Shown: piece by piece, positions 1 through 27,542 of the stretch
Layout of the letters: each line of letters begins with the position of its first letter
Numbering within the stretch: the stretch's first letter is position 1
Virus record (IMG/VR): IMGVR_UViG_3300025759_009344
Coordinates: 1 to 31,426 of that record
Reading direction: 5' to 3' (one strand)
Length of the DNA stretch: 31,426 bases
Source of the DNA: a virus
Translations under genes and position numbers: made by a program
The notes under the pieces: generated by a model
The model's input: the letters and a program-made list of their open reading frames with translations, nothing else
Database searches by the model: none
What the model was told of the DNA's origin: nothing

Positions 1-202
1 TGTTTTAACCTTTGTCGCCAAAGGGAGCGGACTATATCATCACTCATAAGAGTGTCGGACGCTAGTGGCGTATTACGGATGAAGCGTCATCCACCGCCTA
101 GTCTCTGAACCTTCCTTACACGCTTGCAAGGCTTGGCTGCTGATTGTCTACAAGAGAGTTCCAGCAATTCATCCGATTTAACGAGCGCCATGCGTTCACA
201 AA
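1..202 (-). ncRNA. psbA intron 2, group I intron (3' end beyond window)
   Basis: This follows exon 2 directly. The 5' splice site is fixed by a P1 helix: exon bases ACGAGCGU (210-203) pair with intron bases GCGCUCGU (188-181), with the final exon U opposite G as group I introns require. Core elements are visible: the P7 strand in GTTCAGAGACTAGG (110-97), its partner GATATAGTCC (38-29), and a P9-like hairpin CCTTTG-GCGA-CAAAGG (24-9) closed by a GNRA tetraloop. The sequence TTAAAACA after P9 should be close to the 3' splice site. No ORF lies in the visible part. From memory, phage S-PM2 has a psbA group I intron of about 212 nt near the 3' end of the gene; this could be its counterpart. Confidence 0.88.
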
Positions 203-1025
203 ACGCTCGTGCATTACCTCGAACCCAAGGTTAGCACGATTCAGAATGTCAGCCCAGGTGTTGATAACACGACCGTCAGAAGACAGCAGGGACTGGTTGA
301 AGTTGAAGCCGTTCAGGTTGAATGCCATAGTGCTTACACCAAGAGCAGCGAACCAGATGCCAACAACAGGCCATGCTGCGAGGAAGAAGTGAAGTGAACG
401 AGAGTTGTTGAACGAAGCATATTGGAAGATTAGACGACCAAAGTATCCGTGGGCAGCAACAATGTTGTAGGTTTCCTCTTCTTGTCCAAATTTGTAACCA
501 TAATTCTGAGATTCGGTTTCCGTAGTCTCCCTAACGAGCGAACTTGTAACAAGGCTTCCGTGCATAGCACTAAACAGAGAACCACCAAAAACACCCGCGA
601 CACCAAGCATGTGAAAAGGATGCATGAGAATGTTGTGTTCTGCTTGGAAGACAAGCATGTAGTTGAACGTTCCACTGATTCCAAGAGGCATAGCATCAGA
701 GAAAGAACCTTGACCGAAAGGATAGACTAGGAATACTGCAGATGCAGCAGCAACAGGTGCGCTGTAAGCAACGCAGATCCAAGGACGCATACCAAGACGG
801 TAAGAAAGTTCCCACTCACGTCCCATATAAGCATAGATGCCGATGAGGAAGTGGAATACTACAAGCTGGAAAGGACCACCGTTGTAGAGCCACTCATCTA
901 GGGAAGCAGCTTCCCAGATGGGGTAAAAGTGCAGTCCAATAGCATTGGACGAAGGAACAACAGCACCAGAGATGATGTTGTTACCGTACATGAGTGAACC
1001 AGCAACTGGTTCACGAATCCCGTCG
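203..1025 (-). CDS. psbA: psbA exon 2: photosystem II D1 protein, residues 60-334
   Basis: D1 is the photosystem II reaction-centre subunit that binds P680, QB and the Mn4CaO5 cluster; phage copies sustain PSII repair during infection. This exon encodes most of the protein, from D61 ([11 protein letters not shown]) through the transmembrane helices to VMHER. Joined to exon 1 it gives 179+823 = 1002 nt, or 334 codons. That places the Mn ligands H332 and E333 at the exon's end, as in D1 numbering. Reading past 203 produces unrelated sequence (FVNAWRS and on) instead of NAHNFPLDLA, so the apparent altered C-terminus is intron read-through. The remaining 25 or so residues must be in exon 3, left of the window. 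Confidence 0.95.
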
Positions 1026-1031
1026 CTTCAT

Positions 1032-1484
1032 CTAACAAACAACCATATCATTAGACTTAGGTTGTTTCTGCTGACGAATTTGATTTGCTCGTCTTGCGTT
1101 TTCTACTCTTCCACCATTTTCTACCCACTCTTTCCAAGTTTGTAGATGAGAAATACATTCGGTTATTCTTTCTCCTCTTCTTACTCCCATATAAGGAAGT
1201 ATTTTTTGTAGAATGAATAAAACCTTTTCTTTCTCTCCGATGTGAAGTGTATAAACTTGTTTACCTTTTACAGTTTTTCTTGATGGTGAGAAATAAGATT
1301 TATCTAAAAGTTTACTCAACCTTTGGATAATATCTTCATCTACCATAGAAACTTTGATAAAAGGTGCTGGTGGTATTTTAGAAACTTCATAACGGTCTTT
1401 GGAACGATTATCTATTCCAAAGTATCCTTCACCTTCTAAAATGCCAGCAATCCAAGCAATATCAGTTTCAGTTAAGTTTAACAT
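1032..1484 (-). CDS. Intron-encoded LAGLIDADG homing endonuclease
   Basis: A 150-residue protein with one LAGLIDADG helix near its N-terminus (WIAGILEGEGYFGID, residues about 11-25). One motif in a protein of this size suggests a homodimeric enzyme of the I-CreI type (family knowledge). Such enzymes cut intronless alleles so that the intron is copied into them; the expected target is the psbA exon 1/exon 2 junction. The acidic residues of the motif are intact and no frameshift is visible. The gene ends 6 nt before the 3' splice site. It has a late promoter 23 nt upstream, so it can be expressed apart from the psbA pre-mRNA. It might also act as a maturase. Confidence 0.85.
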   Translation of the reverse strand: MLNLTETDIAWIAGILEGEGYFGIDNRSKDRYEVSKIPPAPFIKVSMVDEDIIQRLSKLLDKSYFSPSRKTVKGKQVYTLHIGEKEKVLFILQKILPYMGVRRGERITECISHLQTWKEWVENGGRVENARRANQIRQQKQPKSNDMVVC

Positions 1485-1500
1485 TTTACTCTTGCGTCTT

Positions 1501-1517
1501 CTGTATTATTTATACAG
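1501..1517 (-). promoter_or_regulatory. Late promoter TATAAATA inside a palindrome, upstream of the intron endonuclease gene
   Basis: The minus strand reads CTGTATAAATAATACAG. The T4-type late element TATAAATA is at 1514-1507, and CTGTAT/ATACAG (1501-1506 and 1512-1517) form 6-bp arms around AAATA. It lies 17-33 nt before the endonuclease ATG. In psbA read-through RNA the palindrome would be a hairpin; as DNA it is a promoter. Confidence 0.7.
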
Positions 1518-1738
1518 CATTAGCAAGAAAAAGTCAACAGTAGATGTGTGGACTATATCTTCACCCTTCGTAGAAGGGGCTGGGCGCTTAAACCTGTTAT
1601 TAAGGGGACTAAACCCCTCAGGTAGTCTCTGAACCTTTCCAAAGTGTACTTTGGACTTGGCTGCTGATTGCCTTTCGGTTTCCAGCATTTCACCCAGTTT
1701 CGTCAATACTCTTACGAGTAAGGGACACCGATTAGTTA

Positions 1739-1917
1739 ATGTCTACGGGAGGTGCGCCGATAAAGGCAATGATGAAACAGATTGTAGCAGCGAGCAGGCA
1801 AGGAATCATAAGAGTTCCGAACCAACCAACATAAAGACGATTGTCAGTTGAAGTAACCCACTGGCAGAACTGTTCCCAAGTATTCGATTGTCGTTGTTGT
1901 GAAATTGTAGCAGTCAT
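1739..1917 (-). CDS. psbA: psbA exon 1: D1 N-terminus, residues 1-60
   Basis: It starts at ATG 1917 ([10 protein letters not shown]) and covers the stromal N-terminus and first membrane helix ([20 protein letters not shown]) up to PPVDI, where the last codon is split after two bases. The downstream sequence TAACTAATCGG belongs to intron 1 and would stop translation after one codon. No strong Shine-Dalgarno sequence is visible just before the ATG; the leader is long and structured. The exon boundary follows from P1 pairing and from frame continuity with exon 2. Confidence 0.95.
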
Positions 1918-1968
1918 TTTAGTTGAAAGTAAGTAGATCCATCAGGGAAATGGTGGAGGTACTTATTT

Positions 1969-2074
1969 CTCTACCACCCTCAGGTAGAGATATGAGAGAC
2001 GGATTGGTAACCCTGCCTAGTCTCGGTAGCGGCAGGAGTGTTACAACTTGTTAAGGAGTTGTTACATTCCTTAA
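1969..2074 (-). promoter_or_regulatory. Structured psbA 5' leader with three hairpins and a possible pseudoknot
   Basis: The psbA transcript should begin near 2080, giving a leader of about 160 nt. In RNA order it can form TTAAGGA/TCCTTAA (2074-2068 with 2057-2051), CCTGCC/GGCAGG (2036-2031 with 2017-2012) and CTCTACC/GGTAGAG (1989-1983 with 1975-1969). The loop of the middle hairpin contains GAGAC (2024-2020), which is complementary to GTCTC at 2000-1996 just downstream, an H-type pseudoknot. Conserved RNAs called PhotoRC-I/II are known upstream of psbA in marine cyanobacteria and their phages. I cannot confirm membership by eye. Confidence 0.5.
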
Positions 2075-2650: not shown

Positions 2651-3124
2651 CTAAATATATCTGGCAATATACCCTTTATGAGATTTTCTATGTCCGCCAG
2701 CAACAGCAAGGAGATTCACAGGATTTAAACCTAATTCCCTAGCAATATCAGAAATTACTCCAGTATATTTTTCTTTGGTTTTGGTATTGATAACTTCTCC
2801 TTGCTTAACCCTAACTCTATTAGACCAACTATTTTGACCAGAGTTTTTTATACTCACACCTTTTTTAGAATCAGAAATTTTCTTTTTAGTTTCTTCAGAC
2901 CATGGGCGACCCTTATTCCATCCAGCAATAAAACTTTCTTCACCCTTTAACATTTTCCAAGCTTTAAAATCCGAAGCAAGTCCCAATCTTTGCCATTCGC
3001 AAAAATGGAACATACAATGTTGAGTATAAGATACTTCAATTAAATTGGATGGGTCATCATTTCCACCTCTATGTTTAGGTATAACATGATGTTTATACTT
3101 TTTAACTTCATCAAAACAAGACAT
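2651..3124 (-). CDS. Free-standing HNH homing endonuclease with NUMOD-type DNA-binding repeats
   Basis: 157 residues. The HNH core is at the N-terminus: KHHVIPKHRGGNDDPSNLIE, then the final His in the QHCMFH region. SEETKKKISDSKKG (about residues 76-89) is a NUMOD3-like segment. The C-terminus (EKYTGVISDIARELGLNPVN) resembles a helix-turn-helix NUMOD segment. It lies antisense between two plus-strand genes, its stop 2 nt from the left gene's end and its start opposite the first codon of the right gene. A late promoter of its own lies 32 nt upstream. Confidence 0.85.
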   Translation of the reverse strand: MSCFDEVKKYKHHVIPKHRGGNDDPSNLIEVSYTQHCMFHFCEWQRLGLASDFKAWKMLKGEESFIAGWNKGRPWSEETKKKISDSKKGVSIKNSGQNSWSNRVRVKQGEVINTKTKEKYTGVISDIARELGLNPVNLLAVAGGHRKSHKGYIARYI

Positions 3125-14799: not shown

Positions 14800-14833
14800 T
14801 ATTTATAATAGCATGGGGTCTCTTGGGTGTCAA
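14800..14833 (-). promoter_or_regulatory. Composite sigma-70/late promoter of the barrel gene
   Basis: Perfect -35 TTGACA (14833-14828), a 17-bp spacer, -10 TATTAT (14810-14805), overlapped by the late element TATAAATA (14807-14800). The -35 contains the TGA stop of the preceding glycosyltransferase gene. A leader of about 120 nt follows. Confidence 0.8.
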
Positions 14834-15627
14834 GCTTCTTCTTTTGGTTTTGCTCCTTCTGAAATTCTACCCAAATAAGGATTGTATGAAGTAATTTGTT
14901 CCAAAGTTAGTTCAGGTCCTTGAGTTTTCCAAAAGTTTAAAATGCCGTTGTAACTATTCCTATGGAATATATCAACATGATCAGGATGAATAGAAGATCC
15001 CAAAGCAATTTTATAAAGAAGAATTGGAGAAGAATAAGTTACACCAGAATTATAAATCAAATCATCAGCAACTGCTCTTGGTCTGACTCCATTATCAAGT
15101 TTATATTTTTCTCCTCTTACATGATTGCGAATTAATTTTTCCGCATGATGACGAGTAATGACATAGCAAGCAGTAGAAAAATCATTCACAAAACGATTAT
15201 GAATCGGAACAATAATATCCCCAGTACAGATAATAGCAAGTTGCAGAACATCCCATGCATAAGGAGCCCTTGCAACAAAATCTTTCCAAGTAAAATTCCA
15301 ACACTTAACAATATCGAGATCGCAATCATCTTCCATGATGACTGCATAAGGACTATCCGAAGTCTCATACCAATTCTTAATTGCTTTTAAGTGAGATGTG
15401 ACACATCCAATCTCACCAGTAGTCATGTTTTCGGGATAAGTTCCTTTAATAATTTCACTTAGGTCATCATCCCTACCATCATAAGCAGAGATACGAGTAT
15501 AATTTTCAATTTTCCAATAATCAAACTGCCTTTCCATATACTCTTTTCTTTCGGGTTGCCCATCAAGATTTAGATAGTATATGGGACCAAAGTTTTCAAG
15601 TTTATATGCTGCTTTGTTTTTATCCAT
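14830..15627 (-). CDS. GT25-family glycosyltransferase (LPS type)
   Basis: 265 residues from ATG 15627, which overlaps the previous stop (TAATG). GT25 features: IYYLNLDGQPERKEYMERQ at the start, GEIGCVTSHLKAIKNW and the metal-site MEDDCDL. Members add galactose or other sugars to lipooligosaccharide. This is the last gene of the glycan cluster. Confidence 0.85.
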   Translation of the reverse strand: MDKNKAAYKLENFGPIYYLNLDGQPERKEYMERQFDYWKIENYTRISAYDGRDDDLSEIIKGTYPENMTTGEIGCVTSHLKAIKNWYETSDSPYAVIMEDDCDLDIVKCWNFTWKDFVARAPYAWDVLQLAIICTGDIIVPIHNRFVNDFSTACYVITRHHAEKLIRNHVRGEKYKLDNGVRPRAVADDLIYNSGVTYSSPILLYKIALGSSIHPDHVDIFHRNSYNGILNFWKTQGPELTLEQITSYNPYLGRISEGAKPKEEA

Positions 15628-16475
15628 TAGATTACTTTCCACCCCTCACAATAAACATCTTCAATGATTTTATCTGCATATGCAGGTCCAAACCAAAGTT
15701 TTGGAGCAACTACTTTACCCCTACCATTTTGCAACCATGCTCCCCACCAACTCAAAGAACTATTGGCAATAATTGCACCGGAGCACAATGACATCAAACA
15801 AACATCAACATATGGAATATAAGATCCATCAGGATATTTATCTGAAGGTTCTGAAATTAAAAACCTATCGCTAGAAAATATCTTTTGATCCTTTACCCAG
15901 TCAGGAGAATCTGAAAAAATAATTACAGGAATATCTTCATCATATTCTCGCAATGCATTTTCATAATATTCTATAGGTTGTGGAGGGTGCTGAGAAGAAC
16001 ATTCAGTGTAGGCCCACTTAAATCCCCTATCACTCAATGTAGGATCTCCCCTACGAACATGAAGAAAGATTGGTTCCCTATCTAGGGCATCGATCATTTC
16101 CCTACAAGGAATTAATATTGTATCATGAAAAGTAAAGTCTTTTCTGAGATCACCTTCTACATTTTTAAAATACTTTTCAGTTTGAAAAAAACCCAAAATG
16201 TTTTTTTCATCTGGACAATGATTGAAAAATTCTTCATCAAAATGAAATTGCTTTTCTTGAAAAGTATCAGAAGTTTTTAACCACCCAACATTTTTATTTG
16301 TAGACATTTTAAAAGATTCAAACAATCCATAATTATGATGTTGAATCTTTCTATCTGTAATGGGTGGTATTGTATAATCAACGCCAATATTTTTCGCAAT
16401 TCCCTTTAATGCTGCATATTGAAACATTTGATTACCAAACCTTCCCATTGTAGCAAGATTATTAAATCCAATCAT
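15627..16475 (-). CDS. GT11-like alpha-1,2-fucosyltransferase
   Basis: 282 residues. Motifs in order: GRFGNQMFQYAALKGIAK for the family N-terminus, IFLHVRRGD (nucleotide-sugar binding HxRRxD), IIFSDSPDW, and NSSLSWWGAWLQ near the C-terminus. These match bacterial GT11 enzymes that move L-fucose from GDP-fucose. A similar sugar nucleotide such as GDP-L-galactose is also possible. ATGA overlap with the next gene. Confidence 0.88.
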   Translation of the reverse strand: MIGFNNLATMGRFGNQMFQYAALKGIAKNIGVDYTIPPITDRKIQHHNYGLFESFKMSTNKNVGWLKTSDTFQEKQFHFDEEFFNHCPDEKNILGFFQTEKYFKNVEGDLRKDFTFHDTILIPCREMIDALDREPIFLHVRRGDPTLSDRGFKWAYTECSSQHPPQPIEYYENALREYDEDIPVIIFSDSPDWVKDQKIFSSDRFLISEPSDKYPDGSYIPYVDVCLMSLCSGAIIANSSLSWWGAWLQNGRGKVVAPKLWFGPAYADKIIEDVYCEGWKVI

Positions 16476-17059
16476 TTTCTATGATACCGGTTGCTATATT
16501 TTTTACGAAGAATAGTCAATCCATTGTTCCATGGAAGAGTTGACCATTCCCAAAACTGCGGATTAAGCTCTGCTACTGCTCTATATGGTCCACCATCTGC
16601 CCACTGTGAACCTCCATGAGAAAGATCACAATGATAAAAAGGATCAGTATTTCCATACATCAAGTCATGAAGAAGTATTATACTTGAAGGTCCGACATAC
16701 CTATCAAGATATTCAAGTTCTTTTTTTACGTGCTCATAAGAATGCCAGTCATCAACAAAAACAATATCCATCTTTTTTTCTTGAGGCCAAGACTCCAGAA
16801 ATGAAAGAGAATCCTGTTTACAAAAAGTATAATTCTCAGATTCTGGGTAATATATTGGGTCTTCAATATCAACAGACCACAGATGTCCACCATTCATCGT
16901 TGCTGCACTTAAAAGAGGTTCTGTGGTATGTCCCTCACGAACTCCCAACTCAACATAAGTTTTTCCTTTTGATGCTAGAGCAATGGAAAACAATGAAATC
17001 AAATGTCTATCAGAATCCATGTTACCATGAAGACATTTATCAATAAATTTTTCAATCAT
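16472..17059 (-). CDS. Class I SAM-dependent methyltransferase
   Basis: About 195 residues. SAM-binding motif YVELGVREGHTT, acidic strand end SVDIED, and IVFVDDWHSYEHVKKELEYL plus LLHDLMYG, typical of the Methyltransf_24 group. ATG 17059 is chosen because GGAG lies 7 nt before it; ATG 17065 is too close to that site. Acceptor unknown; methylation of a sugar in the same cluster is likely. Confidence 0.8.
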   Translation of the reverse strand: MIEKFIDKCLHGNMDSDRHLISLFSIALASKGKTYVELGVREGHTTEPLLSAATMNGGHLWSVDIEDPIYYPESENYTFCKQDSLSFLESWPQEKKMDIVFVDDWHSYEHVKKELEYLDRYVGPSSIILLHDLMYGNTDPFYHCDLSHGGSQWADGGPYRAVAELNPQFWEWSTLPWNNGLTILRKKYSNRYHRK

Positions 17060-17909
17060 GAACATACTCCTTTTTCATTTCCTCAAATACTTTTTCAATC
17101 CCATTATCTATAGATGTTTTAGGTAACCACCATCCAGTAATATATGTGTCTGCTTCATTTCTCTTATCCAACTGAACACTATCTTTTGCAAGTCCAGGTT
17201 TAATTCTTACATCATACTTACCAATTCTATTGAAACATCCCTGAATAATTGATGCAATTTCTTTGATAGATGTAGATCTAAAAGAAGTAATGTGGAGAGG
17301 ATCTTCTGGTTTGAAGTCAATATAATTCTCCATAACTGTTTCAAGTGCTTCACAGCAATCTTCTGCATAAAGAAATTGACGCTCTTCTGTACCATCAGTA
17401 AGCATCTCAAACTCACCCTCCTCAAATCCTCTACGGATAAAATCAGTGATAACATGTGCCTTCTCATGGTCTTTCTCAATACCATAAACATTCCAAAACT
17501 TAACAGTCAATCCGTTAAGAGTTTTGGTATACATTTCACCAACTCTCTTCATAACACCATACGGAGAATAATTCATGTTACTCATTTGAGATGATGCAAA
17601 CACAAATCTCTTATTATACTTTTTTAACAGACCAAAAGAATTAGCCATCAAACGAGTATTATTGTCGATAAATTCAAAAGTATTTTGATACTTTTGAAGG
17701 TAACGAGAACCACCAACATCAAATGCAAGAAAGAATACAAAGTCTGCCGTCTCAATTGCATTCTCAAGATATTGATTAGGAATAATAGTCATATCGTGAT
17801 TTGGAGTTTCCACCTTATCAAAATCAATAACCACATGTCCCTTATTACGAAGGTAATCTGACAAGTAGGCCCCAATCTGCCCGCTTGAACCTAAGATTGT
17901 AATTTTCAT
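17052..17909 (-). CDS. NAD(P)-dependent sugar epimerase/dehydratase (SDR)
   Basis: 285 residues. Rossmann motif ITILGSSGQIGAYL, then FVFASSQMS and catalytic YGVMKR (YxxxK), NVYG and the ATDGTEERQFLYAEDC-type C-terminal segment. Substrate not decided by sequence. Overlaps the next SDR gene by ATGA and may work in series with it. Confidence 0.85.
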   Translation of the reverse strand: MKITILGSSGQIGAYLSDYLRNKGHVVIDFDKVETPNHDMTIIPNQYLENAIETADFVFFLAFDVGGSRYLQKYQNTFEFIDNNTRLMANSFGLLKKYNKRFVFASSQMSNMNYSPYGVMKRVGEMYTKTLNGLTVKFWNVYGIEKDHEKAHVITDFIRRGFEEGEFEMLTDGTEERQFLYAEDCCEALETVMENYIDFKPEDPLHITSFRSTSIKEIASIIQGCFNRIGKYDVRIKPGLAKDSVQLDKRNEADTYITGWWLPKTSIDNGIEKVFEEMKKEYVHD

Positions 17910-18793
17910 TTCTTAATCCAATCAATAACATCTACTTCAGGTTTCCATCCTATGACTTCGCCTATCTTATCTATATTAGCAATAGTAGTTTCCATTTCAC
18001 CAGATCTTTTGGGAATGAAAGTCTGATTGTCTGAGATTGCATTGGCAATTTCTTTTACAGAATAATTCTTACCACTACCAACATTGAATACTTGTCCATA
18101 ATATCCTTCAAGACTTGACGTTGCCGCAAGATAGTTCGCTCTTGCAACATCACCAACATAGATAAAATCTCTTCTCTGTTTTCCATCACCCACAATAGTG
18201 AGTGGTGTTCCAGCATCTTTTTGCTTTTGAAAGATTCCAATAACAGGAGCATACTGTCCTACAGTTGGAGATCTTTCACCAAACACATTAAAGTATCTTA
18301 GTGTTATTGTTTCCAATCCATACAGTTCATAGTACATCTTACAGAATTTTTCTGCAGAAACTTTAGATGCTGAATATGGATTTAGACAATCGTCAGGTTG
18401 TGTTTCAACATTTGGATAGGGGTTGTTTCCATATCCAGAAGAAGTAGAAGAATAGATAAAACGTTTTACACCTGCTTCTCTAGCACACTGTAGAGTTACA
18501 GTAGTTCCAACACAGTTCTTATATACAGCATCAACTGGATTTTCAATTGACGGTTGAAGTCTAGATTCTGCTGCCAAATGAAAAACATAATCTACACCAT
18601 CAAATAATGGACGCATTCTTCCATAGTCTGTAATATCTACTACCTTTGCAATTCCATTATCATTCCAATAAAAGTTTTCATTATTGGCAGACATGTTATC
18701 TACAATGATAACTTCGTTTCCACGTTCAATAAGATAATCTACTAAGTTTGAACCAATAAAACCAGCACCACCAGTAACTAAACACTTACTCAT
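17906..18793 (-). CDS. UDP-hexose 4-epimerase-like SDR (GalE/WbpP type)
   Basis: 295 residues. TGGAGFIGSNLVDYL, FHLAAESRLQPSIENP, SSTSSGYG, catalytic YSASK, RYFNVFGERS and GDGKQRRDFIYVGDVA are the standard extended-SDR motifs of sugar 4-epimerases. Full length. It probably interconverts UDP-sugars for the nearby transferases. Confidence 0.85.
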   Translation of the reverse strand: MSKCLVTGGAGFIGSNLVDYLIERGNEVIIVDNMSANNENFYWNDNGIAKVVDITDYGRMRPLFDGVDYVFHLAAESRLQPSIENPVDAVYKNCVGTTVTLQCAREAGVKRFIYSSTSSGYGNNPYPNVETQPDDCLNPYSASKVSAEKFCKMYYELYGLETITLRYFNVFGERSPTVGQYAPVIGIFQKQKDAGTPLTIVGDGKQRRDFIYVGDVARANYLAATSSLEGYYGQVFNVGSGKNYSVKEIANAISDNQTFIPKRSGEMETTIANIDKIGEVIGWKPEVDVIDWIKK

Positions 18794-19520
18794 AACTTAA
18801 CCTGTTATAGATTGACTCAAAAATTTTTCTTTTTAATTTAGTAGTTGAATACCCATGGTCTCTGTTAATAAACTGAATGGGAATACTCAAGTCCTTTCCG
18901 GTATAAGAACCATCGGCATAGTCATCACCAACAAATCTAATATCATAATCATCAAGATAAGATAGAAAGGTTTCTTCCGCCTGATAGATAACGATATCAT
19001 CAATGTATTTTATTGCTCGCAGAATTTCTTTTCTGTCTTCCAAAGATTGCGATGGTTTTATCTTACTTGCTCTTGCCATTGACGGATCTTCATGAAGAGC
19101 CACCGTAAGATGATTACAATACTTTTTACAGTCCTTGAACATCCTCACATATCCAGGATGAATCAAATCAAATGCACCAGCAACTATACCCCTTTTAAGT
19201 GGTTGCGTTTTCATCCATTCGGATACTTCTATTCCTTTATCATCTATGAATAAGTCTGCAGTTGGTTTATGAAACATTGGTTCAAGTTCATGATACTTGT
19301 ATCCCCACTTATCTAATTGCTTACATGTAAGTTCGGTATGGTCAATACCAGAACCTCTACCACGAGCAGTCATTATAATGATATAATGACCTTCATGATA
19401 AAGGCGATTGAGTGTTTCTACCATCAATGGAATTGGAGTGGCATTAACATAGTCCGGTTTTCCTTTTTTGTTATTGGGAGTATCACAAAGTGTCCCATCA
19501 ATATCAAAACAATATCTCAT
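18786..19520 (-). CDS. HAD phosphatase fused to a HldE/TagD-like nucleotidyltransferase
   Basis: 244 residues from ATG 19520, which overlaps the SIS stop (ATGA). The N-terminal HAD domain has FDIDGTLCDT (D6, D8), IIIMTARG and ADLFIDDKG. The C-terminal domain (from about 110) starts GIVAGAFDLIHPGYVRMF and continues with SQSLEDRKEILRAIKYIDDI, as in cytidylyltransferase-like enzymes. With the SIS and GHMP genes this gives phosphatase and nucleotide-transfer steps of a heptose pathway in one polypeptide. The HxGH motif reads HPGY (121-124). Confidence 0.8.
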   Translation of the reverse strand: MRYCFDIDGTLCDTPNNKKGKPDYVNATPIPLMVETLNRLYHEGHYIIIMTARGRGSGIDHTELTCKQLDKWGYKYHELEPMFHKPTADLFIDDKGIEVSEWMKTQPLKRGIVAGAFDLIHPGYVRMFKDCKKYCNHLTVALHEDPSMARASKIKPSQSLEDRKEILRAIKYIDDIVIYQAEETFLSYLDDYDIRFVGDDYADGSYTGKDLSIPIQFINRDHGYSTTKLKRKIFESIYNRLSYE

Positions 19521-20044
19521 ACAACTCCATGAAGAAAAATCTGATGAACACATTCCACTACACCGTAACTTTCACTTGCAATATGATAGTTCCACAATGC
19601 ATTGGTTGCTCTGGTTCGAATAGTGTTTTCTGGAGAAAATCCAGTCAATACTCCATAATCAATTCTATTCTCTTCACACCATGTCAGACAATTCAAAATG
19701 TTCTTTGACTCACCACCAGAACTCATAAGAACAACCAAGGTTTCTTTCTCCACATAGTATTCCAGAAACTTCTGATATGCATTCTCATACCCAAAGTCAT
19801 TTGTAAGCATGGTAAGCATAGAAGGATCTGAAAGAATAGAAACTTTCTTACCCCTAAACTTCATATAATCCTGAGAAATGTGTGATGCAACTGAACTACT
19901 ACCACCATTACCCAAGATTATAATACGTTGATGATTATTAAATGCTTCTTGAAATTTCTCAAATTCACTACTCATATGAGCAGATTCAAGAGTATTAATA
20001 TATTCTTTAAACGGATTCACCCAATACTCCATCAGATACTGCAT
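19517..20044 (-). CDS. SIS-domain phosphosugar isomerase, GmhA-like
   Basis: 175 residues. Sugar-phosphate loop RIIILGNGGSSSVASHISQD and the second loop VVLMSSGGESKNIL. Its size, plus the kinase upstream and phosphatase/transferase downstream, fit sedoheptulose-7-phosphate isomerase (GmhA) rather than other SIS enzymes. It overlaps the kinase 3' end by 38 nt; ATG 20032 is a possible alternative start. Product D-glycero-D-manno-heptose 7-phosphate is expected. Confidence 0.8.
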   Translation of the reverse strand: MQYLMEYWVNPFKEYINTLESAHMSSEFEKFQEAFNNHQRIIILGNGGSSSVASHISQDYMKFRGKKVSILSDPSMLTMLTNDFGYENAYQKFLEYYVEKETLVVLMSSGGESKNILNCLTWCEENRIDYGVLTGFSPENTIRTRATNALWNYHIASESYGVVECVHQIFLHGVV

Positions 20045-20954
20045 TTATTCTAACTTTATTATAAGGTATTGTCAACTGTCCAGGATGAGAAAAGGTTAAA
20101 AAGAATCCCCCATTACCAGCACCACACAATTTATGTGCAATGACTGTAGTATTTTTTTCTAGATGACTATCAATTTCTTTTATTTTTTCGTTTTCAGTGA
20201 TAGAGGATGTAGTTGATTTTTTCTGCTGCCATCCATCATTAATCAATTCTAAAAATTGAGAGTAATTATTCTCTGATAATGCATCATAAGACTTATCAAC
20301 GGTTTCCAATAAAGGATATATTTTATCTAAATTGTCTGTCACATTCTTCAAAATTTGTTTTGAATTTCTGGTAACCCCAGTGAACACCAAGTTCATTTCA
20401 TATCTCTTGAAAATGTCCAGAGGAAGATACTCATACTTTATACTATTCTTATTGAAGAATTCAATTCTTTTAAATCCACCAATACCACATCCATACGGAT
20501 CTTGATATCCACAAAAAGGATTAAATTTTAGTTCTAACTCATATGCCAACTTGCATATATCAGATTGCGTATATTCTTCGTCAAGAAAAATACAACAAGA
20601 TTTTATGAGACTAATGATATAAGATGAAGAAGATGCCAGTCCACTTCCCTGAGAATAAGCATCACTAGTAAGTGTTACTTGAACTGGTGGCATATTGAAA
20701 TACTCAAGAACAACTCTTACAACATCATTATCTATCTCTTTTATTGTAGATACTTCCTCTCTTCTAGAATAGTTGATGATATATTTGTGCTTATCTTTAT
20801 TGAATCCAAACTTATCTTGACTAATAGTTACATAGGTTTTCAAATCTGATGTAAAACTAATGACACTACCATACCCATACTTATCAACAAAGTATGGGTT
20901 ATCAGTAGATCCACCAAACAAAGATATTCTTAATGGGCAAGAAGAAATAATCAT
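20007..20954 (-). CDS. GHMP-family sugar kinase, HddA-like (heptose 7-phosphate kinase)
   Basis: 315 residues. Entry motif CPLRISLFGGSTD as in HddA-type kinases, ATP loop QGSGLASSSSYIISLI and the late motif KLCGAGNGGFFL. HddA phosphorylates D-glycero-D-manno-heptose 7-phosphate at O1. Genome neighbours (SIS, HAD-nucleotidyltransferase) support a heptose substrate, though the last residues run over the isomerase gene. Confidence 0.82.
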   Translation of the reverse strand: MIISSCPLRISLFGGSTDNPYFVDKYGYGSVISFTSDLKTYVTISQDKFGFNKDKHKYIINYSRREEVSTIKEIDNDVVRVVLEYFNMPPVQVTLTSDAYSQGSGLASSSSYIISLIKSCCIFLDEEYTQSDICKLAYELELKFNPFCGYQDPYGCGIGGFKRIEFFNKNSIKYEYLPLDIFKRYEMNLVFTGVTRNSKQILKNVTDNLDKIYPLLETVDKSYDALSENNYSQFLELINDGWQQKKSTTSSITENEKIKEIDSHLEKNTTVIAHKLCGAGNGGFFLTFSHPGQLTIPYNKVRINAVSDGVLGESV

Positions 20955-21775
20955 CTATACTTTCTCAGATACTTTTGATTAGAATAATAAGATTTTAATT
21001 CATCCTTATTCATTTTTTGTAGAGACTCCCACAATTGAAAATTCTCACTCATGTAAGGATTACCTTGGACAGACGCAGGCCATGAGTTCCGTCCTCTACT
21101 GTGCTCTAAATGATAAATGAAATTATCTATTCTGGCAACCCTATAACCAAGAGTTGTAAACCTGAAATATCTTTCCTTGTCCTCTGGTGATGAACCTCTA
21201 AAGTTTTCATTCTCCATTCCACCCTCAAAGTATACGTCCCTATCGAAGAACTGAACCCAACCAAAGTCAGAAGACCAGACTTTTGATTTGTTCTCTAGAA
21301 TAGAGAAGTCACAGTTAGAGTTCAAAAACTCAGAAACAAGTTCATCATCGGCAAGAACTTGTTTCTGCCAATTACCATTGCCATAAGGATACACAACGTC
21401 TGCTTCATCATCCATAATCATCCGATAAGATTCTATATATGATTCAATGGGAAGAAGAATGTCACAATCACAATTGACAACCACCTTTGTAGTTGTCATG
21501 GCAAGCATTTCATTTAGGATATGCATCCTGTAGAACACAGGATCCTCAGACTTCTCAAACACATGTTTAAGAGAACTCAAATCATCGTAGAACTCTTTCA
21601 ACTGGGGAAGAATGTCCTCCTTGAAAACAGAGGTTGTATCAACTTCCTTGATTATAATATTAGTGTCAAAGTTTTCGAGAAGAAACACAATACTAGTAAG
21701 GACATTACGCATTCTGTCCTCACTCTCAATCCTGACTGGGATAATAAAAGTAGCTTCTTTTAAATCTTGTTTCAT
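20951..21775 (-). CDS. GT-A glycosyltransferase (galactosyltransferase-like)
   Basis: 274 residues. ATFIIPVRIESEDRMRNV at the start, DCDILL as the DxD metal site, then GWVQFFDRDVYFEGGMENEN and SSPEDKERYFR, resembling the acceptor/C-terminal domain of galactosyltransferases (Glyco_transf_7C). Overlaps the kinase by ATGA. Confidence 0.75.
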   Translation of the reverse strand: MKQDLKEATFIIPVRIESEDRMRNVLTSIVFLLENFDTNIIIKEVDTTSVFKEDILPQLKEFYDDLSSLKHVFEKSEDPVFYRMHILNEMLAMTTTKVVVNCDCDILLPIESYIESYRMIMDDEADVVYPYGNGNWQKQVLADDELVSEFLNSNCDFSILENKSKVWSSDFGWVQFFDRDVYFEGGMENENFRGSSPEDKERYFRFTTLGYRVARIDNFIYHLEHSRGRNSWPASVQGNPYMSENFQLWESLQKMNKDELKSYYSNQKYLRKYR

Positions 21776-22533
21776 TTTTTCAAGTACTGTGAATCATGAT
21801 ATTCTTGATCGAAATTATTTGGTTTTGGAATAATCACTTTAGATTTACATCCACTCATCCACCAAGATACCTCATCAAAAGTGCTATCATAAGTACCTAT
21901 AATTTTAGAACACTTTGATAAAATTAGCAACTCAATAAAAGCATCGGTGGTAATCTGAATATCATCATGATGACCAGATTCAGCCTGATGTGGATTATTG
22001 AATAATTGCCTTTCATATGTAACTACCCTATCACAATACTTATCCACAAAATACTTTTGAACATCTGAATTATCTGAGCAGAGAAAGAACTTTTCTGGAT
22101 TCAACTTATCAATTTGTTCTTCAAAAATATCGTTACTGTGAAATCTATTTTTTGAACAGTACCAAGATCTTATATGGACTCCAACCATATCTTTCCAATC
22201 TTTAGTAAAGTCATTTACATAATCAATAATGCCCCGATTAATTTCAAGTCTCTTAATGATATTAGAATACTTCTCAATAAAATATTGAGGAGTCTCTTCA
22301 TACAACAAGTCTATTGTTCTATAAGTTTCAGTGTACTTCTCCTCATCTGTTGAAATATGCAGTCTCCAATTTTCTTCATAAGGATTTACCACATCATCCA
22401 ACAACTTTACTGACGGAAAAATATAATTTATGGGTTCATGCAATGTACCAACTTCTTCAAATTGAGACATTGCACTCATAATATTTTTGATTCTATTTGC
22501 TATGCCAGCATGACTTGTAACTGTGACTAACAT
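21772..22533 (-). CDS. Fucosyltransferase-like GT-B glycosyltransferase
   Basis: 253 residues from ATG 22533, with GGGAG 8 nt upstream; a longer open frame has no support. SHAGIANRIKNIMSAM is a diverged family entry motif, VGVHIRSWYC the HxR motif, FFLCSDNSDV and GTYDSTFDEVSWW the later motifs. It resembles the wider fucosyltransferase superfamily rather than classical GT11. Donor unknown. Confidence 0.72.
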   Translation of the reverse strand: MLVTVTSHAGIANRIKNIMSAMSQFEEVGTLHEPINYIFPSVKLLDDVVNPYEENWRLHISTDEEKYTETYRTIDLLYEETPQYFIEKYSNIIKRLEINRGIIDYVNDFTKDWKDMVGVHIRSWYCSKNRFHSNDIFEEQIDKLNPEKFFLCSDNSDVQKYFVDKYCDRVVTYERQLFNNPHQAESGHHDDIQITTDAFIELLILSKCSKIIGTYDSTFDEVSWWMSGCKSKVIIPKPNNFDQEYHDSQYLKK

Positions 22534-23321
22534 AAAATTTTCTCCCAACCACTTGGATATAAATCATCAGTACTAATAGATGAAAGTCCTGGACCATACC
22601 AAGGTTTTGGAGAAATAACTCTTCCCCTATTACCTAACCAGGATCCCCACCAAGAAAAGGTGCTGTTCGAAATAATAAAATCATCACATCTTGATATTAC
22701 ACATAAATCAACGAATGCTTTTTCAACCTTTGTTTTCTCTTCGACAAAGATAAAATTGTCCCCTTTAAAATGTTTCTTATAGAGTTCTATATTATTTGAA
22801 CAAATTAAATACAATCTATCTTTACCAAGTTTTTCAATTGCTTGCTGATAATAATCAATAGGAATATTTCTGTGATTAGTATTGCAACCAGGATAATCAA
22901 ACGAATCATTATAGTGTCTTGCACAGATTGATACTGGATTTTCTTTTAGGTATTTTCCGTAGAGTATTTCAACCTCTTCTTGAATTTCTTTTTTGAATAT
23001 AAAATCAAGTCTGATTAATTTTTCTGCATTCTTAAAATATCTTTCAGTTTGAAAATATCCAGTGAGAGTCACATGGTTTGGACATTCGTCAAATAGTTCT
23101 TGGCAGAACTCATGAGATTCATGCAACTGAACTTCATCCCCGTCAATAATTCCATACCTATCACCACAGTGTAGCATCTCAAAACATCGTGTTAGGTCAC
23201 AATCTTCGGGGATTCTGAAATCGTATCCTTTGTTTTTAGCAATTCCAACAAGAGCGGCATACTGGAACATTTGATTTCCTATTCTACCATTCTTTCCAAG
23301 ATTATTCATTCCAATCGTCAT
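22527..23321 (-). CDS. GT11-like fucosyltransferase with altered HxRRGD motif
   Basis: 264 residues. GRIGNQMFQYAALVGIAKNK and NSTFSWWGSWLGNRGRVISP match the gene at 15627. The usual HVRRGD segment is replaced by ICARHYND, so the first His and the RGD are lost and only one Arg is kept. It may use another donor, or be inactive. The frame is intact with normal length. Confidence 0.8.
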   Translation of the reverse strand: MTIGMNNLGKNGRIGNQMFQYAALVGIAKNKGYDFRIPEDCDLTRCFEMLHCGDRYGIIDGDEVQLHESHEFCQELFDECPNHVTLTGYFQTERYFKNAEKLIRLDFIFKKEIQEEVEILYGKYLKENPVSICARHYNDSFDYPGCNTNHRNIPIDYYQQAIEKLGKDRLYLICSNNIELYKKHFKGDNFIFVEEKTKVEKAFVDLCVISRCDDFIISNSTFSWWGSWLGNRGRVISPKPWYGPGLSSISTDDLYPSGWEKILC

Positions 23322-24157
23322 AACTCAATTCCCATGTTTTGCTCTTTCAATCTATTATCTATTATATCACCCACATCGGAAGAGTAAAATTCATGCCATC
23401 CATGAGGATTTCCAGTGAAGTAATAATGATTTGCATCATATATATCTTTCATCTTTACCTTTTCCCAATACTCTCTCGATTGTATCTTGTAATGGTTTAG
23501 AAGAAGTTTTGGATTCTCCTCATCTGTTTTATATCCAAGATTTATTGTAGGACCGTCAGTAAAAATGTCATGGACATTGAAGTGTTTGATATTAAAATCG
23601 GAATTTGCTATTCCTTTCGCAGCATTGAATGTCTCCCACTGAGGTTCAAATTTTCCTCTGGGATTCATACAATCATTTCTAGTGAAAAACACTCTAACAT
23701 TGTACTCAGCTCTTTTAGTAAAGTTTTTAACAATACCATCCTTTGGATGTTCAATAAAATCATTAGAGTTAAACCATACCCAATTAGTAAGAATAGTTCC
23801 ATAGTCCTCATATTGAACTAACAATTCCTTTAAGTCAATATAATCTGGACTATAAAGATATTCATCAGAATCGAGGTGAGCAATCCACTTAGATTCTTTA
23901 GTGAGAGGAAGTCCATACTTATTTGTAATATCAATCTGTCTTCCAGTGTATCTTTCAGAAACTTCGTTCATAATCAAAGTTACATATCCCTCGTCAATGT
24001 ATGGTTTAACAATGGGAAGGTAATCATCATCACTAAAATCATCAATCAGATAAATGTGATCTGCACCATGATACTTATAATGTTCTATCCATTCTTTAAG
24101 ATTCCAACTTTCATTTCTAAACATCGAAAGAATAGAAAAATAATACTTGCGTGTCAT
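23318..24157 (-). CDS. GT92/GT2-like glycosyltransferase
   Basis: 279 residues from ATG 24157, overlapping the next stop by ATGA. SMFRNESWNLKEWIEHYKYH, HIYLIDDFSDDD and HLDSDEYLY are typical of GT92-type (Glyco_tranf_2_4) enzymes. RVFFTRNDCMNPRGKF may form the acceptor side. Role in chain extension. Confidence 0.8.
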   Translation of the reverse strand: MTRKYYFSILSMFRNESWNLKEWIEHYKYHGADHIYLIDDFSDDDYLPIVKPYIDEGYVTLIMNEVSERYTGRQIDITNKYGLPLTKESKWIAHLDSDEYLYSPDYIDLKELLVQYEDYGTILTNWVWFNSNDFIEHPKDGIVKNFTKRAEYNVRVFFTRNDCMNPRGKFEPQWETFNAAKGIANSDFNIKHFNVHDIFTDGPTINLGYKTDEENPKLLLNHYKIQSREYWEKVKMKDIYDANHYYFTGNPHGWHEFYSSDVGDIIDNRLKEQNMGIEL

Positions 24158-24864
24158 TTTACAATCCCATACTTTTTGTGACAATATTTAAACTCTTCAA
24201 TAACTTCTTCCTGACTTATGGATTCCTGCCATGTATCTTTTCTAACTCTATTTCCAATCAAAGTATCATTCAAGTAGATTGGGTGTCCATAATTCAAAAA
24301 CATATTATAATAAAACTCAACGTCCATTAACATGGCAACATTTTCATCGAAGCGAATCTTATTTTCTTTCTTAAATGAAACAACAGATGGAGCACCGATA
24401 AAATTATGTCCTGGAGATTTTATCATGTTTGAATCCCATCTAGGATTGATGGGATGATAAAAAGTGTGTCCATCATCTTTTGTATGAATACACCCATTAA
24501 CTAACCACATGCTCTCACTGCCCATTAGTTCATTATAAATTTTTTCTAATGCAGTGGTATCATATAAGAAATCATCCTGAAAGAATACCTTTACAACATC
24601 TCCAGTTGCATGATTAATAGCAACGTTTGTATTGGCACACGGGTTCCCCCTACTCTCCTGATTCCTAATGTATTTGATATTCAAATTGTATTCATTTAAA
24701 TCACAAAACTTCTCAACATTATCTTCGGTGCTGTGATCAGAAACTACTACCTCAACTTCTTTTAGTGTTTGAATAGAAATGGTTCTGAGCAAATCATCAA
24801 GGAATTCTACACCTCTATCAAAATGTTCGTAAGCAGGAACAGCAATTGATACCTTTACTTCCAT
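24154..24864 (-). CDS. GT2 family glycosyltransferase
   Basis: 236 residues. GT-A features: VSIAVPAYEHFDRGVEFL, EVVVSDHSTEDN, GNPCANTNVAINHATGD and VKVFFQDDFLYD (acidic DD metal site). IGAPSVVSFKK and NVAMLMDVEFY form the catalytic and acceptor part. Overlaps the methyltransferase start by 10 nt. Confidence 0.85.
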   Translation of the reverse strand: MEVKVSIAVPAYEHFDRGVEFLDDLLRTISIQTLKEVEVVVSDHSTEDNVEKFCDLNEYNLNIKYIRNQESRGNPCANTNVAINHATGDVVKVFFQDDFLYDTTALEKIYNELMGSESMWLVNGCIHTKDDGHTFYHPINPRWDSNMIKSPGHNFIGAPSVVSFKKENKIRFDENVAMLMDVEFYYNMFLNYGHPIYLNDTLIGNRVRKDTWQESISQEEVIEEFKYCHKKYGIVK

Positions 24865-25529
24865 ACTTTAGCACCGCCGTTGATACCATCTTCATAGATT
24901 TCAAAACGGTATCCGTGTTTATCTAACCATTCCCTAAATGCTTTTCTTTCGTGGTGATCATAATCTGGCTCATGTCCATGCCAATCATCAAATCTGAAAT
25001 AGATTTCATCCCACTCACACTTGTCAATGAACTTAAACGCAGAGACAGTTGGTTCATAAATGTCCAAATCAATGTGAACCGCACCGATTTTATTGATACC
25101 ATATTCAGACGGATCTTCAAGTTTATGAACGTCTTCAATAACAAGAGTTACATTTTCATTATGTTTTAGTCTATCAATCACTCCTTGAACTGTTTGAGGA
25201 ATCCAAGTGTATTGAGGATCTCCTACACGAAATGCGCCAGGAGTCCATCCAGAATAGTGTGGAGTAGGTTGTGAGGTTTGCTCTAAACCTTCGAAATGAT
25301 CAAACCCAAACACTCTCCTATCTGGATTAGCTTTTGCGATTGGATCTAATGTTCCACCAGAACAGACACCAAACTCCAAAATATCTCCCTCTCCTGCCAG
25401 TTCAGAGATTCTGTCAGCAAAGTCAAGATGACTTAGAGTATATGATAGAGTGTTTCTATCTGTTCTTTTTGTTCCTTCAGGAAAAACGTTATCAACCTCT
25501 ACAAAAGAGGGGGGATTGTAACTCGACAT
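24855..25529 (-). CDS. SAM-dependent methyltransferase, TylF/macrocin O-methyltransferase-like
   Basis: 224 residues from ATG 25529 (MSSYNPPSF); the TTG at 25541 is less likely. DILEFGVCSGGTLDPIAK for SAM binding, VFGFDHFEGL, AVHIDLDIYEPTVSAFKFI and YFRFDDWHGH with metal-binding acidic residues. Family members O-methylate sugars. A late element AATAAATA lies 21 nt upstream, allowing separate late expression. Confidence 0.82.
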   Translation of the reverse strand: MSSYNPPSFVEVDNVFPEGTKRTDRNTLSYTLSHLDFADRISELAGEGDILEFGVCSGGTLDPIAKANPDRRVFGFDHFEGLEQTSQPTPHYSGWTPGAFRVGDPQYTWIPQTVQGVIDRLKHNENVTLVIEDVHKLEDPSEYGINKIGAVHIDLDIYEPTVSAFKFIDKCEWDEIYFRFDDWHGHEPDYDHHERKAFREWLDKHGYRFEIYEDGINGGAKVWK

Positions 25530-25549
25530 AATTTTTTTCAATTTCGTTT

Positions 25550-25557
25550 TATTTATT
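25550..25557 (-). promoter_or_regulatory. Late promoter AATAAATA within the glycan cluster
   Basis: An exact NATAAATA match overlapping the end of the 25553 gene and 21 nt before ATG 25529. It is the only such element noticed inside the cluster. Confidence 0.5.
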
Positions 25558-26260
25558 GTGATACTTCCACACCAGGTGGGAGATTTCTATGAAATCCAAA
25601 TGGGATGATATTTCTATTTTCAGGAACTGGTGATTCATATGAAAAATATTTTGCCAGTTCTAAGGGAGCAATTTTACATCCCTGCGATTCAAAAATGTGT
25701 TTGTTATGCACACAAATGTTTCCATCTTCATTTGTATTTTTTGAACCAAACATTTTATAGAAATTTGGTTTGTCAGAAACGCGATAAGGAACTTCAACTT
25801 TTGTGGGAACTTCCATTAGTTTTTTAGAACGAAGAGAAAATCCTCCGTTACCAACTCTGACATGCTCATCATACGGAGTAATGTACGAACCCTCACTGTA
25901 AGGCCATGGAGCACCGATATAATCATAGTCTAGAAATTCATCAGTCCATGCATCAGGATTAATAATAAATCCATGATCTTGAACGATTAGTCCAAACTCC
26001 ATATTAATGTGTTTGTACATGTGATACAAAATGTATTCATTATACTCATCAATATTCGTGAGTGGTTTAACCTGTTCTTCCACAATTATACCATCTTCAT
26101 CCAAACTATCTTTATATTTTTCAACATAGTTTGGAGTAGTTACTAATTTTACTTCACCAAAAGAAGCCACATCCATACAAGTATAAATGCCCTTAATCGT
26201 ATCTTCAATACGAGGTGTATTGTCTATAGAAAAACACGTAACCCTTGAAAGATTAAGCAT
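25553..26260 (-). CDS. DUF5672-like protein, probable glycosyltransferase
   Basis: 235 residues. The segment FLDYDYIGAPWPYSEG followed by VGNGGFSLRSKKLMEV is the hallmark of DUF5672 proteins, which accompany glycosyltransferases. LIVQDHGFIINPDAW may form the nucleotide-sugar/metal site. Overlaps the dehydrase gene by 8 nt. Confidence 0.7.
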   Translation of the reverse strand: MLNLSRVTCFSIDNTPRIEDTIKGIYTCMDVASFGEVKLVTTPNYVEKYKDSLDEDGIIVEEQVKPLTNIDEYNEYILYHMYKHINMEFGLIVQDHGFIINPDAWTDEFLDYDYIGAPWPYSEGSYITPYDEHVRVGNGGFSLRSKKLMEVPTKVEVPYRVSDKPNFYKMFGSKNTNEDGNICVHNKHIFESQGCKIAPLELAKYFSYESPVPENRNIIPFGFHRNLPPGVEVSQ

Positions 26261-27542
26261 AGTTGTTAATTACCTCTCCAATATGATTTAGCATATCATC
26301 ATTAATAGTAGGTGAACATCCAAGGAAAAATACTTTGTTCAGAACTTGATTGGATTCAGGATATTTAAACGCATCATCTAAGTGAACGTATCCAGGGTGA
26401 AGGAGAATATTACCAGCAAAATAATTACGTGTTTGAATTTTATTTTCTTCTAAGTGCTTAACTAAAGAGTGCTTCAATTCTGGAGTATCACACACGATTG
26501 GAACTCCAAACCAACTAGTCTCAGAATCTTTTCTTTCATTTACAACTCTACATCCAGATATAGTTTCAATCATGCCGTGAATTGTTTCTTTATTCTTACG
26601 ACGTATCTTGTGAATCTCATCAAACTTCAACAACTGAATTGAACCAACCGCACCCTGAAGATCAAGAGGTTTGAGATTATATCCCATCTGACCAAAGACA
26701 TACTTGTGATCGACAATATCGTCATAATCCTCCAACCATTTATCAAATCTACGTCCACATACACCATTGGAAAGTAGATTCTGCTGTCCAACACAGTAAC
26801 AACCACGTCCCCACCAAGCAAAACTGCGAGCAAGATCTACAACCTCTTTAATATTTGAAGATACCATACCACCTTCAATTGTGCATATGTGGTGTGCAGG
26901 ATAGAACGAGCAAGATGCAGCAACAGCGTGCTTTGTCAGGTAGTCATTCTTATATTTACTACCAAGACTATCACAGTTGTCGGAGATTAGTTTAATTCCT
27001 TTACTATTACAAATATCGATAATTCTATCCATATCATATGCATTACCAAGCACTGGTGAGGAAAAGACTGCGCGGGTGCGTTCGGTAATCTTTTCTTCTA
27101 CTTGATCGATATTCCAATTAAGATCTTTCCAGGTGATATCAACAAAGACTGGTTTCAATCCGTTTTGAACAATTGGTGCAATGGTAGTGGCAAATCCACA
27201 AGCACAAACAATTATTTCATCGCCATCACTCCACCCAAAATACTTTTTAAGGGCAGCAATCATCACAAGGTTTGCGGATGAACCAGAGTTCACCATCACA
27301 GAATAATCAAACCCAAACTTGTTTGAGAACTCACGCTCAAACTTGTTTACCTTCTCGCCAGAAGATAACCACTTCCCTTTCAATACGGCGTAGATAAGTT
27401 CTTGTGCTTCCAAATCATCCCAATAAGGACCAGAGTAATATATTGATTTTCCAGGTTTCCAATCTTTATTCGCCATGAAAGGAAAGATGCTATCATCAGA
27501 TTCCTTTGCATCTTGAATAAACTTATCAATTAGTTGATACAT
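26253..27542 (-). CDS. rfbH: RfbH/E1-type PLP and [2Fe-2S] 3-dehydrase of deoxysugars
   Basis: 429 residues of the DegT/DnrJ/EryC1 fold: VNSGSSANLVMIAALKKYFG, EIIVCACGFATTIAPIVQNG, LISDNCDSLGSKY. The usual PLP Lys is His (SFYPAHHICTIEGG, H217), which marks dehydrases instead of transaminases. Cys190, 248, 250 and 262 reproduce the C-X57-C-X-C spacing of E1 (CDP-6-deoxy-glucoseen 3-dehydrase), with the last gap 11 residues instead of 7. It should remove the C3 hydroxyl of a 4-keto-6-deoxy sugar nucleotide to lead to 3,6-dideoxyhexoses, using electrons from an E3-type reductase, which is not in the window. Confidence 0.88.
   Translation of the reverse strand: MYQLIDKFIQDAKESDDSIFPFMANKDWKPGKSIYYSGPYWDDLEAQELIYAVLKGKWLSSGEKVNKFEREFSNKFGFDYSVMVNSGSSANLVMIAALKKYFGWSDGDEIIVCACGFATTIAPIVQNGLKPVFVDITWKDLNWNIDQVEEKITERTRAVFSSPVLGNAYDMDRIIDICNSKGIKLISDNCDSLGSKYKNDYLTKHAVAASCSFYPAHHICTIEGGMVSSNIKEVVDLARSFAWWGRGCYCVGQQNLLSNGVCGRRFDKWLEDYDDIVDHKYVFGQMGYNLKPLDLQGAVGSIQLLKFDEIHKIRRKNKETIHGMIETISGCRVVNERKDSETSWFGVPIVCDTPELKHSLVKHLEENKIQTRNYFAGNILLHPGYVHLDDAFKYPESNQVLNKVFFLGCSPTINDDMLNHIGEVINNYA

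Follow-up and report, generated by a model that had tools for sequence, protein, structure and literature searches.

The window analysed here is the complete IMG/VR record IMGVR_UViG_3300025759_009344 (31,426 bases), from an uncultured virus of cyanobacteria. It carries psbA, a central photosynthesis gene borne by cyanophages, in a form interrupted by two group I introns. Their insertion points are two of 18 intron sites that we mapped in phage psbA genes, and seven of these 18 (179, 276, 408, 548, 570, 645 and 750) are published intron sites of green-algal chloroplast psbA. The simplest account, which we consider quite probable, is that the window holds a cyanophage psbA with two mobile introns from this 18-site set, and that introns or their endonucleases would have been exchanged with chloroplasts, either directly or via intermediates. 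On balance, and with less assurance, we also favor the broader reading that cyanophages and green-algal chloroplasts share one mobile psbA intron population, moving between the virus and organelle pools or derived from a single pool, which divides phage genes with up to nine introns into exons as short as 14 nucleotides (nt).

The psbA gene of the window starts at position 1917 on the minus strand, with a PhotoRC-II leader RNA (Rfam) directly upstream (Table 1). Its first two exons add up to 179 + 823 = 1002 nt, or 334 codons with zero stops, just as a sequence-only reading of this DNA had counted, and the open reading frame (ORF) 991-116, covering most of exon 2, matches Photo_RC with an E of 2.2e-77. 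The same reading had called both interruptions group I introns, and both indeed score above the gathering threshold of the Rfam covariance model RF00028. Each 5' splice site also allows the P1 helix with a terminal U.G pair that it proposed, of 8 base pairs (bp) for intron 2 and 5 bp for intron 1, the latter being within chance when taken alone (mean of 5.29 bp at site 179 vs 4.12 bp at control sites, P = 0.15). With splice sites marked by slashes, the junctions of intron 1 read GACAT/TAACTAAT...GATGAAG/CGACGG. The splice site at nt 179 was recognized correctly, but the intron does not sit between I60 and D61 as was thought and instead splits codon I60 after its second base (AT/C). The splice site of intron 2, near the Mn ligands H332-E333, was also right, but the intron follows R334, one codon later than had been read. 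The last base is G in both introns, that of intron 2 being read from contig L071 (IMGVR_UViG_3300025769_000367), which is 100% identical to the window over 1,671 overlapping bases. The third exon that had been expected to the left of the window is present in this contig at L071:1677-1754, where it encodes NAHNFPLDLASVEATPVALTAPVIG and then a stop, giving a complete D1 protein of 359 residues.

To place this gene among others, we combined three viral-contig searches with a spliced-alignment script for a first mapping and then added three further junction searches. The resulting census of 97 distinct regions comprises the window, five GenBank phages and contigs fetched by intron junctions or endonuclease, with "distinct" meaning exact containment only, near-copies being counted separately. 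It holds 153 introns at 18 psbA sites. At least one intron was mapped in 84 regions, at least two in 35, at least three in 15, at least four in 10 and at least five in 5; since the contigs were fetched through junctions or endonuclease, 84 of 97 is not a frequency of introns in phage psbA. The 13 regions with no mapped intron include a false match to a D2-like gene (L054), a stretch with codons 1-61 only (L085), four exon-3 fragments, three stretches that begin at codon 58-61 and four complete uninterrupted genes. A P1 of at least 4 bp can be drawn for 153 of 153 introns vs 61% of control T positions, and one of at least 6 bp for 52% vs 13%. Among isolates, the intron probes matched psbA introns of S-PM2, S-RSM88 and S-SRM01, and the intron 2 probe matched S-CBWM1.

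The maximum is reached in L102 (IMGVR_UViG_3300042987_001812), whose psbA has nine introns between exons of 179, 138, 182, 57, 14, 75, 245, 102, 19 and 66 nt. Eight of the nine introns contain RF00028 gathering hits, as do 47 of the 49 introns in the ten regions with at least four. This psbA is preceded by phage sugar-transferase genes and followed by a gene for endonuclease VII. We know of no phage gene that is more finely split. In our literature search, no title or opening of an abstract dealt with a phage psbA holding more than two introns, earlier remarks being possible. The judgment of the sequence-only reading that two introns in one gene are unusual was too narrow: S-CBWM1 is annotated with two, which rules out the idea that two introns in phage psbA are new, and several uncultured phages have more, with a maximum of nine. 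The window psbA is a further example of an interrupted phage psbA.

Intron 1 contains an ORF for a protein of 150 amino acids (aa) that had been taken for a LAGLIDADG enzyme. Its LAGLIDADG_3 score of 20.8 bits lies under the Pfam cut-off of 22.5, as does that from L088 (22.3 bits), while a relative in L018 is above it (33.1 bits); the assignment nonetheless holds, because the endonuclease profile matches solved LAGLIDADG enzymes (I-AniI, E 6.7e-7). The LEGEG motif (L16-E17-G18-E19-G20) is invariant in 19 of 19 aligned copies, a twentieth, from L090, having been excluded for a stop within its frame. An AlphaFold model of the protein (predicted local distance difference test 82.5, predicted template modeling score 0.73) finds I-CvuI (E 2.2e-5), I-MsoI and I-CreI as top folds in Foldseek. 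These share the single-motif LAGLIDADG fold of the modeled enzyme at E values of 2e-5 to 2e-4 and a TM-score of ~0.5-0.6, but only 10-18% identity, and all three originate in other chloroplast introns. The ORF lies 3' of the catalytic core and between the two P9 strands, hence in loop L9, a placement drawn from P9 strands that stay paired while their sequence differs: in other introns at site 179 the pairing is kept with other letters, such as CATTTA/TAAATG and AACTTCA/TGAAGTT. In the window, the stop codon of this ORF supplies the first three bases of the 3' P9 strand. Introns occupy site 179 in 31 distinct psbA regions, the window counted, with a full-length LAGLIDADG match in 18, a match to the C-terminal end only in 4 and none in 9. 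The four partial matches are in short introns (L096, L097, L098 and L118) that keep the last 14-24 residues only, which are, by their sequence, remnants of a lost endonuclease.

Chloroplast psbA genes, too, are known to have introns at site 179, where intron 1 sits, and the endonuclease there is of the same type, a point that the sequence-only reading had overlooked. Numbering chloroplast sites by the nucleotide preceding the intron, Oedogonium chloroplast psbA has introns at 179, 276, 384, 408, 525, 548, 570, 645, 754 and 898 (PMC2442088; this and the other papers discussed here are cited from excerpts), those at 179, 276, 408, 548, 570 and 645 being classed IA1, and Ulva chloroplast psbA has introns at 179 and 750 (PMC10151680). 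RF00028 is not subgroup-specific. Seventeen phage sites had been mapped before the algal tables were consulted, and six of them (179, 276, 548, 570, 645 and 750) coincide to the nucleotide, with a hypergeometric p of 2.8e-9 on a uniform expectation over 1,059 positions. A targeted junction search for chloroplast site 408 returned 12 stretches, of which five without psbA were dropped, and the intron was present at 408 in all seven remaining phage psbA contigs. In contrast, searches at two conserved control sites recovered psbA genes with no intron there. The introns also agree in their cargo at site 179, where phage and Oedogonium alike have a single-motif LAGLIDADG gene in L9, and at site 276, where both have an HNH gene in L5 (Oedogonium from PMC2442088). 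We found no title or abstract start on psbA intron sites common to phages and chloroplasts, although earlier remarks are possible.

Several observations weigh against the account favored here. The coincidence is weakened when only T positions are considered (at least 30, 50 or 70% T in 32 phage genes), where 5 of 15, 4 of 12 and 3 of 10 sites are shared with p of 2.8e-6, 4.8e-5 and 4.7e-4, respectively. Most loci were retrieved via sites 179 and 1002; when these two are left out, p becomes 1.2e-7 on the uniform expectation and 5.6e-5, 8.2e-4 and 0.011 at the three T thresholds. Targeted junction searches for the chloroplast sites 525 and 384 gave no phage intron: psbA was uninterrupted at 384 in 4 of 4 stretches (L016 among them), and three of the four stretches returned for 525 were dropped for want of psbA. 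At site 548 both sides have an L5 ORF, the algal one being HNH in the excerpted source, yet the agreement of class is weak, with two of the three phage ORFs tested reaching HNH_2 just under the cut-off, one matching a zinc-finger model only, and L018 carrying a LAGLIDADG gene there. At site 408 only the loop agrees, an L5 ORF being present on both sides; none of the four phage ORFs tested has a Pfam HNH hit, and agreement of endonuclease class was dropped for this site. Site 750 disagrees outright, as the Ulva intron has a T5orf172 ORF (PMC10151680) while two phage introns have no ORF of at least 80 aa and the third is just 248 nt long, and comparison of class and loop at 570 and 645 is uninformative. 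HNH in L5 is a common arrangement and hence weak as evidence, and homology with the algal introns is argued from position, loop and endonuclease class rather than from intron sequences of the shared sites, the collections searched having yielded no chloroplast intron of site 179. By sequence, the LAGLIDADG enzymes nearest to the one in intron 1 are I-AniI and I-HjeMI, not the algal ones. Two of the nine site-179 introns with no LAGLIDADG match have a 199-aa ORF (GIY-YIG in the one tested) and one has another ORF without a Pfam hit. P9 length, at least 6 bp in 31 of 31 real introns vs 66% of shuffled ends, does not separate the two, and the stop-free spliced D1 is partly built in, since the aligner penalizes stops.

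The sole psbA hit of the 525 search, L140 (IMGVR_UViG_3300037055_000490), comes from a green plastid, although IMG/VR lists this psbA contig as viral; it was rejected as a case of a phage intron and removed from the census. Its intron at 525, with a GIY-YIG/NUMOD3 ORF (PF01541, E 3.6e-10), served as a check of our numbering, a chloroplast psbA intron at 525 being reported from Scherffelia (PMC4743939).

The most serious alternative is convergence, in which phage and chloroplast introns are separate group I lineages and endonucleases aimed at psbA pick the same few conserved stretches. Conservation is indeed higher around the insertion sites than around random T positions (P = 0.0015 for 17 sites), in line with what the sequence-only reading had said of introns in general, and its remark that the introns adjoin codons of the oxygen-evolving site holds for the whole set. 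Nine of 18 sites are within two codons of Mn-cluster residues. Chance would give 2.3 (P = 5e-5), or 3.3 when conservation is matched (P = 0.0012), and with the C-terminal cluster set aside the figure is 4 of 13 sites (P = 0.02). This proximity is most simply explained by the persistence of endonucleases targeting bases that can hardly change. Convergence would also fit the 11 of 18 phage sites that are absent from the algal list used, the empty searches at 525 and 384 and the lack of Pfam HNH hits in the 408 ORFs. It fits less well with six of 17 sites being exact to the nucleotide, a coincidence that stays significant among T positions, with one of three further chloroplast sites then turning up in phages vs neither of the two control sites, and with the single-motif LAGLIDADG in L9 at 179 on both sides. 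We therefore hold convergence to be possible and rather unlikely.

Intron 2 is 207 nt long when complete (it ends at L071:1676) and has no gene inside. A gene for a 123-aa F-CphI-like protein lies 90 bases past the psbA stop (L071:1845-2216), seen in this contig and outside the window, and its product matches Endonuclease_7 (PF02945, E 5.7e-18) and has 35% identity to F-CphI of S-PM2 (E 3e-20). Our analysis suggests that intron 2 is probably spread by this downstream endonuclease, in collaborative homing as in S-PM2. Its spread appears recent because it is 99% identical to an S-SRM01 intron (206-nt query) while exon identity between the two psbA genes is 81% over nt 61-1002 and 79% over the 252 nt preceding the intron.

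When 70 of the 153 introns are placed in a quick maximum-likelihood tree, the sites change 21 times, close to the minimum of 17 and far from the shuffled mean of 54.6 (0 of 200 as low), from which it follows that spread is mostly at a fixed site. Occasional jumps or core exchange are indicated by near-copies at different sites (548 vs 645, 96% over 182 nt; 408 vs 1008, 91% over 191 nt). Introns of one gene can have exchanged sequence only to a small extent, if at all, given that the similarity of introns at different sites of one gene is barely raised (mean percentile 0.559 vs 0.500, standard deviation 0.021, 0 of 200). The endonucleases change place as well, as seen from a LAGLIDADG gene after the core of the site-548 intron in L018 (L018:4128-4526), where other 548 introns have a zinc-finger/HNH-like L5 gene, and from a free-standing LAGLIDADG gene of the intron 1 type in L093 (L093:3826-5429). 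The latter gene lies ~95 bases after an uninterrupted psbA that retains the GTAGACATTGATGG site at nt 179.

The following mechanism would account for these data. Each of the two introns would remove itself by the two-step guanosine reaction, guided by P1. The endonuclease of intron 1 would cut psbA genes that have no intron at nt 179, whereupon the intron would be copied there. Introns 1 and 2 would be members of a related set at 18 phage psbA positions, moving between phages mostly at a fixed site and appearing now and then at a new position in psbA.

Ancient inheritance, by which the cyanobacterial ancestor of plastids had psbA introns that were kept in green algae and phages and lost from free-living cyanobacteria, would equally give shared positions and a tree in which same-site introns mostly group. 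We consider it improbable. A scan of the 179 junction, the sole junction scanned, in one genome each of 84,980 prokaryote species gave 8 hits, none of them in psbA, and a phage intron that is 99% identical between genes ~20% apart is what recent mobility gives.

Very little speaks for the interrupted genes being dead or non-splicing: without splicing a stop does come immediately in intron 1 and after 28 codons of intron 2, but the exons are open, with 0 stops in 139 spliced D1 translations (duplicates and fragments counted, under the aligner's stop penalty), most codon differences from the nearest relative are synonymous (nonsynonymous fraction of 0.137 in 12 genes with at least two introns and 0.195 in 20 others), and the S-PM2 intron at the same site as intron 2 is reported to splice, in a light-responsive manner (PMC5931967). 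The window psbA is most likely a functional gene of a cyanophage. That genes with several introns are assembly chimeras of metagenomic reads is just as hard to believe, for although the intron cores are alike and contigs, the window included, often end within introns, ten distinct regions with at least four introns have open spliced frames and clean junctions, and two introns occur in the isolate S-CBWM1 and three in the isolate S-SRM01. Position 1 of the window and position 1 of L071 both fall within psbA introns; look-alike intron cores are probably the cause of such contig ends, which may conceal more interrupted psbA genes.

Several known systems resemble the window in part. S-PM2 has the same insertion at nt 1002, no gene inside the intron and an F-CphI gene beside psbA, and its intron is 73% identical to intron 2 over 78% of the query; it has this one psbA intron, whereas psbA of the window is also interrupted at 179, by an intron that carries a LAGLIDADG gene. 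S-SRM01, a phage from Serangoon Reservoir, Singapore, shares with the window a near-identical intron 2 and nearby sugar-transferase genes, but our mapping places three introns in its psbA (276, 750 and 1002) and none at 179. In the excerpt of the S-SRM01 paper, one self-splicing intron with ORF320 is proposed, and the GenBank record (MW015081.1 203198-213700, our L001) lists two D1 fragments with an endonuclease between them and no intron annotated. S-CBWM1 (MG450654) resembles the window in having two annotated group I introns in psbA, one with a homing endonuclease; unlike those of the window, they map to 649 and 1011, and the endonuclease has no Pfam hit. On the algal side, Oc.psbA.1 of Oedogonium and psbA-179 of Ulva, as described in the excerpts, match intron 1 in position (nt 179) and in having a single-motif LAGLIDADG, which in Oc.psbA.1 is likewise in L9. 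The Oc.psbA.1 ORF has 184 codons vs 150 in the window, "I (derived, B1)" is the class given for the Ulva intron, both are likened to intron 1 by description rather than by sequence, and the host of both is a chloroplast.

With up to nine introns in a gene, it becomes possible to test what splicing costs during infection, in what order it proceeds and how it is regulated; if all nine are in use, all must be spliced within one infection. Should the phage and chloroplast introns prove to be a single family, anyone asking why psbA of green-algal chloroplasts can hold so many group I introns would have a testable partner outside the algae. There is also a warning for annotation, as an interrupted psbA can be recorded as fragments, which is the case in S-SRM01.

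Table 1. Elements of the interrupted psbA gene in the window
Feature	Position	Strand	Details and evidence
PhotoRC-II RNA, psbA 5' leader element	1955..2049	-	RF01717, 56.3 bits (gathering 39)
psbA exon 1	1739..1917	-	179 nt, from codon 1 through base 2 of codon 60; spliced alignment
Group I intron 1	1026..1738	-	713 nt, at psbA nt 179; RF00028 hit 1748-1532, 70.6 bits (gathering 50)
Internal guide sequence of intron 1	1724..1729	-	GGTGTC, pairs with exon GACAT, terminal U.G; P1 drawing
P9 5' strand of intron 1	1540..1547	-	ACATCTAC; strand pairing
Single-motif LAGLIDADG homing endonuclease gene	1032..1484	-	150 aa, in loop L9 of intron 1; profile, alignment, model
P9 3' strand of intron 1	1029..1034	-	TAGATG; strand pairing
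psbA exon 2	203..1025	-	823 nt, from base 3 of codon 60 through R334; spliced alignment
Group I intron 2	1..202	-	At psbA nt 1002, contig end removes 5 nt; RF00028 hit 242-8, 85.7 bits (gathering 50)
Internal guide sequence of intron 2	181..188	-	GCGCTCGT, 8-bp P1 with exon ACGAGCGT, terminal U.G; P1 drawing, same P1 in S-SRM01

Several L5 ORFs of the census (L102:7284-7955, L072:1375-2124 and others) end in peptides like ISIQV...GSETT. Judged by their sequence, these are the translated P4/P6/P7 core, the same bases doubling as ribozyme and protein C terminus. A phage contig also contains a glutamine riboswitch-like aptamer (L149:5127-5175; RF01739, 35.8 bits with a gathering threshold of 35). 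Elsewhere in the window, a free-standing HNH/NUMOD3 endonuclease gene of 157 aa lies at 2651-3124 (-) between two opposite-strand ORFs, and positions 14830-31424 are taken up by a long run of genes whose translations resemble glycosyltransferases, fucosyltransferases and sugar-nucleotide enzymes, similar genes being found beside psbA in S-SRM01 and L102 as well.

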